Below are positions 1-4,998 of a DNA stretch of 64,000 bases, in pieces. This stretch comes from Catenovulum maritimum (lineage in GTDB: Bacteria; Pseudomonadota; Gammaproteobacteria; Enterobacterales; Alteromonadaceae): the NCBI RefSeq assembly GCF_001050375.1, contig NZ_KQ130483.1, forward strand, positions 224,478 to 288,477, read 5' to 3'. The translations under genes were made by a program, and so were the position numbers. The stretch's first letter is position 1; each line of letters begins with the position of its first letter. Below the pieces are notes generated by a model. It ran no database searches, was not told where the DNA came from, and was given only the letters and a program-made list of their open reading frames with translations.

Positions 1-2
1 CT

Positions 3-83
3 TTGGACTTTGGACTTTGGACTTATAAAGGTAGAAAAACACGTCGACCGACAGAATTAATGCCAGGAGGTAGTAAGGGATGA
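3..83 (+). CDS. 3' end of an unidentified protein (partial)
   Basis: An open frame runs in from the left edge and ends at TGA 81-83. Its last 26 residues are basic, include WTYKGRKTRRPTELMPGG, and look like a true protein end rather than random sequence. It points toward the convergent first flagellin gene. A heptamer TTTGGAC is repeated three times at the start of the visible part and is read through in frame. The family cannot be named from so short a tail; genes beside flagellins are often flagellin-modification genes, but nothing here proves that. Confidence 0.5.
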   Translation: MDFGLWTYKGRKTRRPTELMPGGSKG

Positions 84-256
84 GGTTTCAAGTCATCAGC
101 CCTGCCAATCGACGATTAGATTAAGTCAATTTGAAATTAACTTTGAGGGAAGCTAACAACAATATTTTGACTCAACCTTAGCAAATCACTTTGCTTGGTT
201 AACTAAGCACAATCTAAGCCAACCTTCCTTCATTCAAACATTTTGAATTAAAAACC

Positions 257-275
257 GCCGGAGTAGAACTCCGGC
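257..275 (-). terminator. Intrinsic terminator of first flagellin gene
   Basis: A perfect 7-bp stem GCCGGAG/CTCCGGC with loop TAGAA is followed on the minus strand by GGTTTTTAATT. It lies 45 bases past the stop codon of the flagellin gene at 320. The same GCCGGAG stem ends the third flagellin's 3' region. Confidence 0.85.
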
Positions 276-278
276 AAG

Positions 279-302
279 CGCAACAACTAGGAGAAAGTTG
301 CG
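279..302 (-). promoter_or_regulatory. 3'UTR hairpin with anti-Shine-Dalgarno loop (copy 1)
   Basis: Stem CGCAAC/GTTGCG encloses a 12-base loop, which reads TTTCTCCTAGTT on the transcribed minus strand. All 12 loop bases can pair with the AATTAGGAGAGA of this gene's own ribosome-binding region if two G-U pairs are allowed. It sits between the flagellin stop codon and its terminator. Its role is inferred. Confidence 0.45.
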
Positions 303-319
303 ATTCTGTTCAACGAGTA

Positions 320-1147
320 TTAACCACCTAATAATGATAACGCTGATTGAGGTCTTTGATTCGCTTGACTCAATACTGTTGTACTCGCTTGTTGTAAAAT
401 TTGATTTTTAGTTAATGAAGCTGTTTCTGTGGCAAAGTCTGTATCTTTAATTCTTGAGCGTGCAGCTGACACATTCTCAACAACATTGCTTAAGTTACGA
501 ATCGTTGATTGAAAACGGTTTTGCAATGCACCTAAATCAGCTCTTGCACTACCTACAGCAGAGATTGCGGCATCAATTGCAGTTAAAGCGGCAGATGCAT
601 CCTGCTCCGTGGCAACTGTTAAACTACCAACGCCTAAACCAGAAGCACCAAAACCAGCTGTTCTAGAAAGGTTGACAGAGATGGATTGGCCTCCATTTGC
701 ACCCACTAAGAATTTAGCTGAGTAATTTCCAGTTAATAACTCAACGCCAGCAAACTGAGTCGTTGCACCAATACGGCTTATTTCTGTTTTTAATGCTGAT
801 ACTTCTTTTTGAAGTGCTAAACGGTCAGATGAACTATTAATACCGTTTTGTGATTGTATTGCTAATTGGCGAATTCTTTGTAATGAAGTCGTGATTTCTT
901 GCATAGCGCCTTCAGCAGTTTGAGTTAAAGAAATTGCGTCGTTTGCATTTCTTACTGCCATATTTAGGCCTTGAATCTGAGTTGTCATTCGGTCTGTAAT
1001 TTGTAGACCTGCAGCATCATCTGATGCTCTATTAATACGAAAACCTGAAGATAAACGTTCAAATGCAGTGCTTAACTCTGTACCTGAACCCATTAATTGT
1101 CTTTGTGCATTTAATGATGAAACATTAGTGTTTACGAACATAGTCAT
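320..1147 (-). CDS. fliC: Flagellin (paralogue 1)
   Basis: This is the structural subunit of the flagellar filament, exported by the flagellar type III system. The 275-residue protein has the conserved N-terminal D0/D1 region (FVNTNVSSLNAQRQL, LSSGFRINRASDDAAGL) and the C-terminal helix (ILQQASTTVLSQANQRPQ). Only a short middle section lies between, so large exposed D2/D3 domains are absent. The ATG at 1147 follows AGGAGAGAG by a few bases. A sigma-28 promoter lies about 105 bases upstream. It is closer to the third flagellin than to the second: for example it shares the RQLAIQSQNGINSSSDRLALQ stretch and KFLVGANGG. The 3'UTR carries an anti-RBS hairpin and then a terminator. Confidence 0.97.
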   Translation of the reverse strand: MTMFVNTNVSSLNAQRQLMGSGTELSTAFERLSSGFRINRASDDAAGLQITDRMTTQIQGLNMAVRNANDAISLTQTAEGAMQEITTSLQRIRQLAIQSQNGINSSSDRLALQKEVSALKTEISRIGATTQFAGVELLTGNYSAKFLVGANGGQSISVNLSRTAGFGASGLGVGSLTVATEQDASAALTAIDAAISAVGSARADLGALQNRFQSTIRNLSNVVENVSAARSRIKDTDFATETASLTKNQILQQASTTVLSQANQRPQSALSLLGG

Positions 1148-1150
1148 AAT

Positions 1151-1200
1151 ACTCTCTCCTAATTCTTACATTGCGATTTATGGTGTGCGGTTATTCGCAC
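1151..1200 (-). promoter_or_regulatory. Flagellin 1 leader: RBS region and 5'UTR hairpin
   Basis: On the minus strand, stem GTGCG/CGCAC (1185-1200) with a 6-base loop precedes the ribosome-binding segment GAATTAGGAGAGAGT (1151-1165), which ends three bases before ATG. The 15-base segment is exactly complementary to the loop and stem base of the hairpin in the third flagellin's 3' region (3932-3946). Confidence 0.6.
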
Positions 1201-1279: not shown

Positions 1280-1600
1280 ACAAACAAATCGGGGATTATT
1301 TGCCGAAAATAGGCAATGAAGATTGAAAAAAGCGGAAATTAAAAATTTAGATATGTAATTACAGTAAGATAGAGCGGCAAAACTTTAGTTATTTTTTATT
1401 TAACTTTTAATAAAAAATAACTAAATAAAGCCTAAAGTCTGACTAAAGTAGAAAATAAGAGGCAGGCTGACCGGAAAAGAAGGGGTTAACCTCATCGAAA
1501 ACCCCTAAACCGGAGCGAGTTACACCCGCCTGGCCTGCTATGCCCTTACACTACCTCCTGACTTAGCTTCCAGTGGGTGAAAGCAGAGTCAAATCAAATA
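1280..1600. other. Spacer between flagellin 1 promoter and flagellin 2 stop
   Basis: No gene is seen. The upstream part is AT-rich (1320-1440), with a CTAAAGT-type short repeat. The part beside flagellin 2 is strikingly GC-richer and folds into nested stems, listed separately. A motif CAGGAGGTAGT-GT-AAGGG (minus strand, 1543-1560) nearly repeats CAGGAGGTAGTAAGGG at 64-79 on the plus strand, where it is coding. Confidence 0.6.
1460..1536 (-). terminator. Nested-stem structure 3' of flagellin 2, possible terminator
   Basis: Three nested stems are present: AGGCAGGC with GCCT-G-GCCT (1460-1467 / 1528-1536), CCGG with CCGG (1471-1474 / 1510-1513), and AGGGGTT with AACCCCT (1481-1487 / 1500-1506). 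On the minus strand they are followed by CTTATTTTC. The fold differs from the simple GCCGGAG terminators of the other two flagellins. It may be a terminator or a structured RNA element. Confidence 0.5.
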
Positions 1601-2425
1601 TTATCCTAATAGAGATAATGCTGATTGTGGACGCTGATTAGCTTGACTCAGAATAGTAGTACTGGCTTGCTGAATAATCTGATTTCGAGTTAACTCAGCC
1701 GTTTCAGTCGCAAAATCAGTATCTCTGATTTGTGCTCTTGCACTTGAAACATTCTCAACAATATTACTTAAGTTACGAATTGTTGATTGAAAACGATTTT
1801 GCAATGCACCCAAATCAGCCCTTGCAGCACCAATTGATGATATTGCAGAATCTATTGCGGTTAAGGCTGCTGAAGCATCTGACGCAGTGGCGACAGTAGT
1901 ATTACTCAAGCTTAAACCTGAGGCACCAAAGCCACCTGTTCGAGATAAGTTAACAGAAATTGTTTGACCACCATTTGCGCCAACCAAGAATGCAGCTGAA
2001 TACCCGCCTGTTAACAAATCAACACCGGCAAACTGGGTTGTCGTACCAATACGACTAATCTCAGTTTTAAGTGCAGAAACTTCTTTTTGTAGTGCTGTTC
2101 TATCTGCAGAAGTATTAATACCATTTTGCGATTGAACCGCTAGCGTACGAATACGCTGCAAAGAGTTAGTTATCTCTTGCATGGCACCCTCAGCCGTTTG
2201 GGTTAACGAGATCGCATCATTAGCATTACGAACAGCTTGATTCAACCCTTGGATTTGGGTAGTCATTCTGTCTGTGATTTGAAGGCCCGCGGCATCATCA
2301 GAAGCACGGTTAATTCTAAAGCCAGATGATAAACGCTCAAATGACGTGTTTAACGCATTACCAGAACCTGCCAACTGACGTTGTGCATTTAAAGATGATA
2401 CGTTGGTGTTTACGAACATACTCAT
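1601..2425 (-). CDS. fliC: Flagellin (paralogue 2)
   Basis: A filament subunit of 274 residues with intact N- and C-terminal flagellin domains (MSMFVNTNVSSLNAQRQL at the start, IIQQASTTILSQANQRPQ near the end). It is the most divergent of the three: TLAVQSQNGINTSADR and SRTGGFGASGLSLSNTTV differ from the other two. I place the start at ATG 2425, eight bases after AGGAG; a longer frame from GTG 2434 overlaps the ribosome-binding site itself. Its leader (TTTAGGAGTGAGT) diverges from the other two leaders, and its 3' region lacks the anti-RBS hairpin, so it may escape whatever control those elements exert. It has its own sigma-28 promoter. Confidence 0.97.
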   Translation of the reverse strand: MSMFVNTNVSSLNAQRQLAGSGNALNTSFERLSSGFRINRASDDAAGLQITDRMTTQIQGLNQAVRNANDAISLTQTAEGAMQEITNSLQRIRTLAVQSQNGINTSADRTALQKEVSALKTEISRIGTTTQFAGVDLLTGGYSAAFLVGANGGQTISVNLSRTGGFGASGLSLSNTTVATASDASAALTAIDSAISSIGAARADLGALQNRFQSTIRNLSNIVENVSSARAQIRDTDFATETAELTRNQIIQQASTTILSQANQRPQSALSLLG

Positions 2426-2545: not shown

Positions 2546-3890
2546 GATATTTGTTTTATTATTTTTAAGCAAAAAATAACTAATTAATAAAAACTTATAC
2601 GACACACATACTTAAAATAATACAAAACAACCAAAACAAATAACAATCAAAATTAAAAACATGATAAAAAACATATTATTAAATATATAATTTAAAAAAT
2701 AAAAATGGAAAGCACACTCGAATCTACTCAATTTCAGTTAGGCATTAAAAGACCTAATATTTGAACGAATAAGCTTAATCACAGCTGAACTAAACCAATC
2801 TAAAATTCAATTCATTTAAGAATTGAATTCCTGGGTATAAAATTTGAGCGCTGTGCGAACTGCATATAAATATAAAGATTGATGGAGGATGATGATTCAA
2901 GAAGGGCAAACAGATAAAAATGGGTCAAAGCAAAGATTCAAATAGAAATAACATTCGTTGCTTTAATTACTTTTAAATCTTTCTACGGCCAATGTTTATG
3001 TCCATACAAAGGATACAGACGAAATTTAAGTAGGTTAGAACTTAAATTATTTGCAACCACTCCCTAACTTTAAACCTCAAACAAAAAATAAAAAGTCATA
3101 AGACTGGTTTAATAAACCTAGGCTAAAGATTTATATCTGCTTATACATTCGTGATAAAAAAATACAATGAAGTAACTGAATCAAGATATACATTTGCTTC
3201 AGCAAAATGTTATCCGCAATCAAACAAGTCAAGTTAGGCTAGTAAGTCAGATCGTCTCCAATTTATCTCTAAGGCATAGAAATAAATATAATGCGTTACC
3301 AAACAAGCTAAATTAACAGATTTAATTGCTAACCAAGAGCCCTATAACGCTAAACTATCCAGCTAATTTATTAATTCCAAGTGCCGAATTAGGTAAGCAC
3401 TGGTCTTAATAGAAAACAATATTGTGAAATCGCAAGACACAATACCGGCAGATAAAGTTAACGTGAGGGAGATCAAATTTAAATTGGGCCTATATCTATG
3501 CTTATCTTGAGCAATCAAGAACGAATTAGGTAGCTCTTAATCTCGTGATTTACATCAAATGACGGTAATCGCAAACACATCACTTGTTGATTGGCACAAT
3601 ATATCTGATCATTAAGTTAATTAGATTCTTTACTGTGATAATGACTAAAACCTAGCAATTACTACTTCGCTAAATTCGATTATCCCATTGTAAAAATCAA
3701 CCTCAAACTATATGCTAGTTGTCCAAATTGTCTCTAATTTAAAGCCTAACATCACAAAAATTGAGTATGCCGAGCTACAAACTAGGTGCTTTCGCAAGTT
3801 TATTGTTAGTTATAATCCATATATTCTTATCGCATTACCTCATCTAATATTCGTTAAGACTCTCTTCTTAACACTTATAAATTGCTTAGT
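2546..3890. other. Long non-coding, hairpin-rich spacer between flagellins 2 and 3
   Basis: About 1.3 kb of AT-rich sequence has no convincing gene on either strand. It contains several perfect inverted repeats: AATTCAATTC/GAATTGAATT (2804-2829), AATTTAAGT/ACTTAAATT (3023-3048), AGTGC/GCACT (3380-3401) and TATTGTG/CACAATA (3420-3444). No flagellin remnant was recognised on the minus strand. A short frame at 2889 (18 codons) follows a GGAGG but has no other support. Confidence 0.6.
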
Positions 3891-3939
3891 TTAAAACTGC
3901 CGGAGGAAATCCCTCCGGCCAATCAACACACGAATTAGG
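3385..3939. repeat. Three copies of CGAATTAGG in the flagellin spacer
   Basis: The nonamer CGAATTAGG occurs at 3385-3393, 3522-3530 and 3931-3939. In the first and third copies it lies in the loop of a hairpin (stems AGTGC/GCACT and ACACAC/GTGTGT). The second is flanked by the short complementary pair GAGC/GCTC. The core GAATTAGG is also the sense sequence of the flagellin 1 ribosome-binding region. On base composition I would expect fewer than one copy in the whole window. Confidence 0.6.
3899..3919 (-). terminator. Intrinsic terminator of flagellin 3 3' region
   Basis: A perfect 8-bp stem GCCGGAGG/CCTCCGGC with a 5-base loop is followed on the minus strand by CAGTTTTAAAC. It shares its stem sequence with the flagellin 1 terminator but lies about 255 bases past its own stop codon. 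Confidence 0.85.
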
Positions 3940-3950
3940 AGAGAGTGTGT
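3926..3950 (-). promoter_or_regulatory. 3'UTR hairpin with anti-Shine-Dalgarno loop (copy 2)
   Basis: Stem ACACAC/GTGTGT encloses a 13-base loop. On the minus strand ACTCTCTCCTAATTC is the exact reverse complement of the 15 bases just before the flagellin 1 start codon. Most of those bases are in the loop and so would be exposed for pairing. Together with copy 1 at 279-302, the arrangement of anti-RBS hairpin and then GCCGGAG terminator occurs twice. Confidence 0.5.
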
Positions 3951-4173
3951 GATCTGGTTTAAAGCTAAGCTTTAATTCTTAAAAATCATTTAAATAGGCG
4001 ACAAATGTCGACAAAATCAATTTATTTAATAGTCAATAAACAAACACTTAATAAAAATAGAGCTAGAAAAACCATTAAATAAATAGGAACTCGTCCACTG
4101 CCACTTATTAAAGTTTCAGTGCTAAACAAAGACACCGCACTCGAATTTGTCGAGTACGGCCTTCTATTATTCA

Positions 4174-4998
4174 TTAACCTAGTAAAGACAAGGCTGATTG
4201 AGGTCTCTGGTTAGCCTGACTTAACACAGTTGTACTGGCTTGTTGTAAGATTTGATTTTTGGTTAAGCTAGCGGTTTCAGTTGCGAAATCTGTATCTTTG
4301 ATTCGAGAACGTGCAGCTGAAACATTTTCAACAACATTACTTAAATTTCGAATCGTTGATTGGAATCGGTTTTGCAACGCACCGAGATCTGCCCGAGTTG
4401 AACCTATGGTTGATATTGCCGCATCAATCGCTGTTAAAGCAGCAGATGCATCGGCTTCAGTCGCAACTGTTAGTGTACCAATGCTCAAACCAGAAGCCCC
4501 AAAACCACCAGAGCGCGACATATTAATTGATATAGATTGACCACCATTTGCGCCAACTAAGAATTTAGCTGAATAATTACCCGTTAACAGCTCTACCCCA
4601 GCAAACTGAGTGGTGGCACCAATTCGACTAATTTCAGTTTTAAGTGCGCTCACTTCTTTTTGTAGAGCTAATCTATCTGATGAACTATTAATACCATTTT
4701 GTGACTGGATCGCTAATTGTCGAATTCGCTGTAACGAAGTGGTAATTTCTTGCATTGCACCCTCAGCAGTTTGACTGAGTGAGATAGCATCATTTGCATT
4801 TCTTACCGCTTGATTTAAACCCTGGATTTGGGTTGTCATCCTGTCAGTAATCTGAAGACCCGCGGCATCATCAGATGCTCGGTTAATTCTGAAACCAGAT
4901 GATAGTCTCTCAAATGCAGTATTTAGCGCATTACCAGAGCCCATTAATTGTCTTTGAGCATTCAAAGAAGATACATTCGTGTTTACAAACATTGTCAT
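4174..4998 (-). CDS. fliC: Flagellin (paralogue 3)
   Basis: A filament subunit of 274 residues with complete D0/D1 ends (TMFVNTNVSSLNAQRQLMGSG; ILQQASTTVLSQANQRPQ). It is nearly identical to paralogue 1 over most of its length, with changes in the short variable centre (INMSRSGGFGASGLSIGTL). The ATG at 4998 follows GAGTTAGGAGAGAAT. Immediately upstream, the leader can form AACTC/GAGTT, a stem that partly overlaps the ribosome-binding site. The gene lies downstream of flgL on the same strand and has its own sigma-28 promoter. It has a long 3' region of about 275 bases that ends in an anti-RBS hairpin and a terminator. Confidence 0.97.
   Translation of the reverse strand: MTMFVNTNVSSLNAQRQLMGSGNALNTAFERLSSGFRINRASDDAAGLQITDRMTTQIQGLNQAVRNANDAISLSQTAEGAMQEITTSLQRIRQLAIQSQNGINSSSDRLALQKEVSALKTEISRIGATTQFAGVELLTGNYSAKFLVGANGGQSISINMSRSGGFGASGLSIGTLTVATEADASAALTAIDAAISTIGSTRADLGALQNRFQSTIRNLSNVVENVSAARSRIKDTDFATETASLTKNQILQQASTTVLSQANQRPQSALSLLG

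Follow-up and report, generated by a model that had tools for sequence, protein, structure and literature searches.

In many bacteria a single filament is assembled from several flagellins, and the post-transcriptional setting of flagellin amounts and order is, to our knowledge, largely open. The stretch of Catenovulum maritimum DNA analysed here (64,000 nucleotides; the window) raises the question at a single locus. Its three flagellin genes all lie on the minus strand, with a fourth (fliC4) just outside, and the minus strand 3′ of fliC3 carries a hairpin (hairpin A) that exposes ACUCUCUCCUAAUUC and is followed by a G+C-rich, terminator-like stem (Table 1). Could such a hairpin belong to an RNA that acts on the ribosome-binding site of a sister flagellin?

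Hairpin A and its match to the fliC1 leader

The original prediction claimed a perfect 15-nt match between this region and the fliC1 leader, and the match is there: ACTCTCTCCTAATTC at 3932-3946 (−) has its complement, GAATTAGGAGAGAGT, at 1151-1165 (−) on the fliC1 coding strand. This complement covers the fliC1 Shine-Dalgarno (SD) sequence, as had been claimed, but it does not directly precede the start codon, ending instead three bases upstream of the ATG at 1145-1147 (−). The predicted hairpin likewise holds, as 3880-3985 folds better than 200 of 200 shuffles (z −4.8), and the 13 nt of its loop have a predicted unpaired probability of about 1.0, also when the whole 286-nt 3′ region is folded. 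What had been called a strong terminator does have a strong stem, but with only a short T run (AGTTTTA), and a terminator scan did not report it. No sigma-70-like promoter was found by a scan of the interval from fliC3 to hairpin A. The window holds a second hairpin of the kind, which the original prediction had missed, after fliC1 at 279-302 (−); we refer to its loop as loop B and to that of hairpin A as loop A.

Table 1 Features of the flagellin region, in window coordinates
Feature	Position	Strand	Basis or remark
Anti-SD hairpin A, fliC3 3′ region	3921..3954	-	13-nt loop 3932-3944 within 15-mer 3932-3946
G+C-rich terminator-like stem after hairpin A	3894..3919	-	stem 3919-3899, short T run; sequence, folding
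Terminator-like hairpin directly 3′ of fliC3 stop, ahead of hairpin A	4134..4160	-	terminator scan
fliC1, predicted main target	320..1147	-	leader ranking
fliC1 SD region GAATTAGGAGAGAGT, putative target, exact complement of 15-mer	1151..1165	-	sequence match
fliC2, predicted weakest target of the window's three; ATG 2425 derived	1601..2425	-	duplex energy
fliC3, hairpin A 3′ of it; SD is second best match to loop A	4174..4998	-	leader ranking, duplex energy
Second anti-SD hairpin (loop B), fliC1 3′ region, CGCAAC - TTTCTCCTAGTT - GTTGCG	279..302	-	best match among 326 is the fliC1 leader
Terminator-like stem (275-257) and T run after fliC1 hairpin	251..275	-	sequence, folding
Structured element, fliC2 3′ region, with CAGGAGGTAGTG at 1549-1560, possible SD mimic	1500..1585	-	sequence
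GCCAGGAGGTAGT, core of same element kind as in fliC2 3′ region, opposite strand beyond fliC1	62..74	+	sequence

How specific is this match? Within the window alone, the 15-mer has five matches at up to three mismatches compared with 1.73 expected, which is weak evidence by itself because 3 of 100 shuffles also reach five. Across the 4.55-Mb genome, the 14-base core of the match occurs exactly at two sites only, the fliC1 SD and the hairpin itself; there are no sites at one mismatch and 27 at two, against 22 for the reversed control. As a background of leaders we used 326 non-overlapping ORFs of at least 120 amino acids from 475,001 bases (about a tenth of the genome), each given up to eight candidate starts, a choice that favours the background. 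Loop A ranked the fliC1 leader first among these (score 15) and that of fliC3 second (12.5), with the next at 9.5, and loop B also ranked fliC1 first (13), rankings that carry the caveat that the core of any anti-SD loop fits many SDs. Duplex energies for loop A were −25.3, −21.2, −15.4 and −10.6 kcal/mol with fliC1, fliC3, fliC2 and fliC4, respectively, and so agree with the target order originally proposed (fliC1, then fliC3, then fliC2). The further claim that fliC2 would be spared is correct in that fliC2 is the weakest target of the window's three, yet seven contiguous pairs remain.

Other elements of the flagellin array were also apparent. A second element conserved in flagellin 3′ regions is recognizable by the 13-mer GCCAGGAGGTAGT, which has 28 exact matches in 17 of 60 relatives; 26 of these 28 adjoin flagellin genes by position, and reversed controls gave none. 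Judged by eye, AGGAGGTAGTG can pair with CACTCTCTCCT of loop A at 10 of 11 positions, and it may therefore be an SD mimic or sponge. The leader of the fourth flagellin (locus L015, about 3105-3294, −) is long, with repeated GAGG-type stretches, and is similar in relatives of the genus. Between fliC1 and fliC4 lies a long tandem array of the 7-base unit GGACTTT (L015, about 3337-3958; window 1-25), which meets a stretch of N immediately outside the window start and continues into the window.

Related units across the Alteromonadaceae

A search of relatives for the hairpin-plus-terminator pattern, the check named with the original prediction, found related units 3′ of flagellin genes across the Alteromonadaceae, the family to which the window belongs judging by its relatives. 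The flagellin loci of relatives comprised 330 flagellin genes in 113 loci, and 3′ of these genes a search anchored on CTCCT gave 106 candidate hairpins. Eleven loci that repeated the same genomes were left out, flagellins of <60% identity were also dropped, and the hairpins after gene 1 of L047 and gene 3 of L015 were set aside as not of the family. The pattern was found after flagellin genes in 63 of the 89 loci thus retained (those with a flagellin of at least 60% identity, repeats removed). The CTCCT-anchored search found no such hairpin in the other 26, some of which hold only the separate gene d; one of these 26, L068, nevertheless has a covariance-model match. In L068 (genome G009), unit A has lost the anti-SD core of the loop (CACTCTCAGTATACC), and the stem and terminator-like stem are kept. 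The usual gene order in relatives is a-b-c-d-flaG, with unit A 3′ of gene a and unit B 3′ of gene c, and the B-unit consensus reads TTTGCTCnATCTCCTAACGTGAGCAAGTTGGCCGGG..CCCGGCCTTTTTT.

A covariance model of the B units gave 88 listed matches of at least 46 bits, in 73 of 295 family genomes, a lower bound because the model missed the window's own genome. In a sample of 369 class genomes, scores outside the family stayed at chance level, the highest being 30.5 bits. At E ≤ 0.01 the model matched 127 of the 295 family genomes compared with 65 of 369 in the class sample; since the class sample also gives such scores, we take the weak family matches to be mostly chance. In the loci of the 30 best-scoring family genomes, every match (30 of 30) lay 3′ of a flagellin gene, and none of nine class loci had a flagellin. 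Outside the family but within the order, a similar hairpin was seen by inspection in one locus (G043/L071). A model of the A units (R2) was dropped for searching, as it had no consensus for the first hairpin, the arms being offset in the alignment.

The B units also carry a 5′ domain, conserved from AAAACG on (mean column identity 78%, 35 rows); the approximately eleven columns ahead of AAAACG are not conserved. Measured from AAAACG through the T run, seven B units are 137-152 nt long, and tandem B units lie 174-455 nt apart in 10 of 11 loci (a pattern search of loci chosen for likely tandem copies), second copies sitting past the terminator of the first. The conserved start and end, the tandem arrangement and the length together indirectly suggest that the B unit of those relatives is a discrete RNA of approximately 145 nt. 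No 5′ domain of this type was seen ahead of the window's hairpins. We make no claim for a structure of the B-unit 5′ domain, for which none of the 14 pairs from RNAalifold showed a double change. A degenerate copy between two B units in L258 keeps the 5′ domain, and the anti-SD hairpin is absent from it.

The leader of flagellin a (for example, in L067, L112 and L139) is approximately 120 nt long and very conserved, with GAGAGNGCCAG present in 51 of 52 such leaders (selected by GAGAGTGTAGGAG near the ATG), and could possibly be a riboswitch or protein site. Two strands of this leader recur, with their order swapped, in the B unit. A tentative reading, with the odds clearly against it, is that Alteromonas and its relatives make a two-part RNA of approximately 145 nt. 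Its 3′ half would be the anti-SD hairpin directed against flagellins b and c, and its leader-like 5′ half would consist of the two flagellin-a leader strands in circular permutation (ACUGAGAGUGUAG; GAGAGAGCCAG in the leader, GAGAGGCCAG in the unit) and would bind the same putative protein or ligand as the flagellin-a leader, thereby linking regulation of flagellin a with that of b and c by antisense pairing. If so, an RNA switch would set the order of flagellins in a multi-flagellin filament.

Pairing across paralogues and lineages

We put at roughly two in three the probability that a flagellin-linked RNA represses sister flagellins through loop-SD pairing. A small RNA, transcribed separately or processed out of a flagellin mRNA, would end in the hairpin and the stem that follows it, and the exposed anti-SD loop would lower translation of sister flagellin mRNAs by pairing with their ribosome-binding sites. 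In the window, fliC1 would be the main target of the RNA after fliC3, with a smaller effect on fliC3 itself and little on either fliC2 or fliC4, and the hairpin after fliC1 would act chiefly on fliC1 itself. We infer that the RNA is made and represses, presumably helped by Hfq (an hfq gene is present in the genome), and that its purpose may be to adjust flagellin proportions or their order along the filament. Counted against this explanation are the predicted folding-away of the SD within the fliC3 leader, the promoter scan that found no site ahead of hairpin A, the terminator-like hairpin between the fliC3 stop and hairpin A, the stem after hairpin A that the terminator scan did not report, and the 26 loci in which the CTCCT-anchored search found no hairpin.

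The loop could instead act in cis, the hairpin staying in the flagellin mRNA and pairing with the SD of the same molecule, as in icaR of Staphylococcus aureus, an alternative that we consider unlikely. If this were so, the best fit of each loop should be to the SD of its own gene. In the window, loop B does fit fliC1, the gene that it follows, best of the 326 leaders, and loop A also fits fliC3's own SD (score 12.5, −21.2 kcal/mol); however, the exact match of loop A is to another gene, its best partner being fliC1 and only the next fliC3. For relatives, we averaged contiguous pairs per paralogue, with leaders typed by motif, gene c taken as the one with a B unit 3′ of it, and excluded L071, L088 and the Catenovulum loci together with leaders without AGGAG (these here and in the position-by-position pairing below). 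Loop A gave means of 7.5 with its own leader a (n = 22), 9.9 with b (23), 9.7 with c (22) and 6.3 with d (24), whereas loop B fits its own leader c nearly as well as b (10.0 versus 10.3, against 6.7 for both a and d). The poorer pairing of loop A with its own leader than with b and c favours trans action for unit A, and the second tandem copies, lying as they do past the first copy's terminator, also speak against a purely cis role. A mixture of trans and cis action is possible.

If the match matters, loops and SDs should change together. We scored the longest pairing run of the loops of each locus with their own flagellin leaders or with those of other groups. Pairing with own-group leaders exceeded foreign pairing in 16 of 17 groups (50,000 permutations, p = 4e-5, a value that carries ancestry because the species are related; L066, L097, L108, L110 and L135 were placed in Alteromonas by judgement), the exception being Paraglaciecola (own 8.96, foreign 9.22). 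Position by position, loop B pairs with leader b in 20 of 24 cases at k = −2 (A-T 10, T-A 9, T-G 1; 0.48 expected); at k = +8, where both G-C and T-A occur, 22 of 25 pair (0.70 expected). Loop A shows an excess with leader b at k = −3 (17 of 23 pair, 0.54 expected) and hardly any with leader c, and most other single positions are invariant or close to the expected pairing. Double changes that keep the match were found in Bowmanella (G-C to T-A), in G007/L058 (CTCCTGA with TCAGGAG), in G043/L071 (CTCCTATC with GATAGGAG) and in the window (CTAATTC with GAATTAG). On a FliD tree of 54 of the 63 loci, the loop changes four times at k = −2 and the leader four times, leaving 1-3 independent pairs, too few to be informative. 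At k = +8 there are three loop changes and a single leader change, and neither of the two independent pairs shows a leader change accompanying that of the loop, a result that does not support co-change at this site. Complementarity to the candidate trans target mRNAs is thus kept in evolution, with exceptions that include Paraglaciecola and the k = +8 result on the FliD tree.

These co-changes also bear on a different role for the hairpin, as a component of a two-hairpin terminator or as a protein-binding site; the CUCCUAAC loop would then be kept for that role and the SD match would be incidental. Such a role would fit the location of the unit at a terminator and the invariance of CTCCTAAC, which is greater than that of the flanking pairs, in 31 aligned B units (themselves found by CTCCT). 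It does not, however, account for pairing that is better within than between groups, for double changes in several lineages or for a match specific to flagellin leaders within the genome, and we regard it as improbable. The flagellin paralogues did arise by duplication and SD-like sequences are simple, but chance or functionless repeats left over from that duplication are a very improbable source, as the element is inverted relative to the SD and the loops and SDs have changed and still match, with conservation in the family; for the first two reasons, the shared ancestry of repeats offered as the alternative to the original prediction is not favoured.

Repression of sister flagellins by loop-SD pairing remains our preferred reading. 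Uniqueness in the genome, rank among leaders, conservation beside flagellin genes and the co-change of loop and SD support a putative RNA element targeting flagellin SDs, and the main idea of the original prediction gains strong support from these sequence comparisons. The original interpretation as a whole is supported in part, its separate, repressing RNA of about 100 nt being a prediction.

Known RNAs and a possible role in the flagellin array

No Rfam family (4,227 searched) matched at its gathering score in the window or in loci L060, L064 and L067, and none at E ≤ 1 in L265, L067 and L015. Nor, among the papers listed from the open-access literature on flagellin together with sRNAs, anti-SD sequences or UTR-derived RNAs, did an antisense system between flagellin paralogues appear. 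The original statement that no system of this form had been described is upheld to that extent, but must be qualified by FliX of Escherichia coli, an sRNA from the fliC 3′ UTR whose overexpression lowers flagellin mRNA and protein (PMC10578931).

The comparisons here draw on excerpts of the cited papers. On that basis, FliX is the closest known RNA. The unit described here shares with it a place in a flagellin gene's 3′ region, but FliX pairs within coding sequences (fliC and the S10 operon), whereas the match found here is to an SD region, and the excerpts describe no control between flagellin paralogues by FliX (PMC10578931). In icaR of S. aureus, a C-rich 3′-UTR motif pairs with the SD and blocks initiation, as proposed here. 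The pairing is confined to one mRNA in icaR (PMC3868564), whereas the unit described here finds its best match in another gene and recurs as a family along a gene array. CJnc230/FlmE of Campylobacter jejuni, presented alongside CJnc170/FlmR, is also an sRNA from the 3′ region of a flagellar gene with a putative anti-SD stretch. It differs in lying 3′ of flgE, in having that stretch single-stranded between stem-loops and in its direct targets, those named in the excerpts being Cj1387c and flgM rather than flagellins (PMC11187230). In Alteromonas, a close relative for which 127 chromosomal sRNAs have been reported, CsrA with the Aln1a-c RNAs provides RNA-based control that may touch flagellar genes, but by sequestration of a protein rather than antisense pairing (PMC5864184).

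Taken at the strength that these sequence data allow, one flagellin message may help to switch down other flagellins. If this is true, the conserved antisense RNA in the flagellin array would constitute a simple form of wiring, in which the mRNA of one flagellin would also yield the repressor of another.
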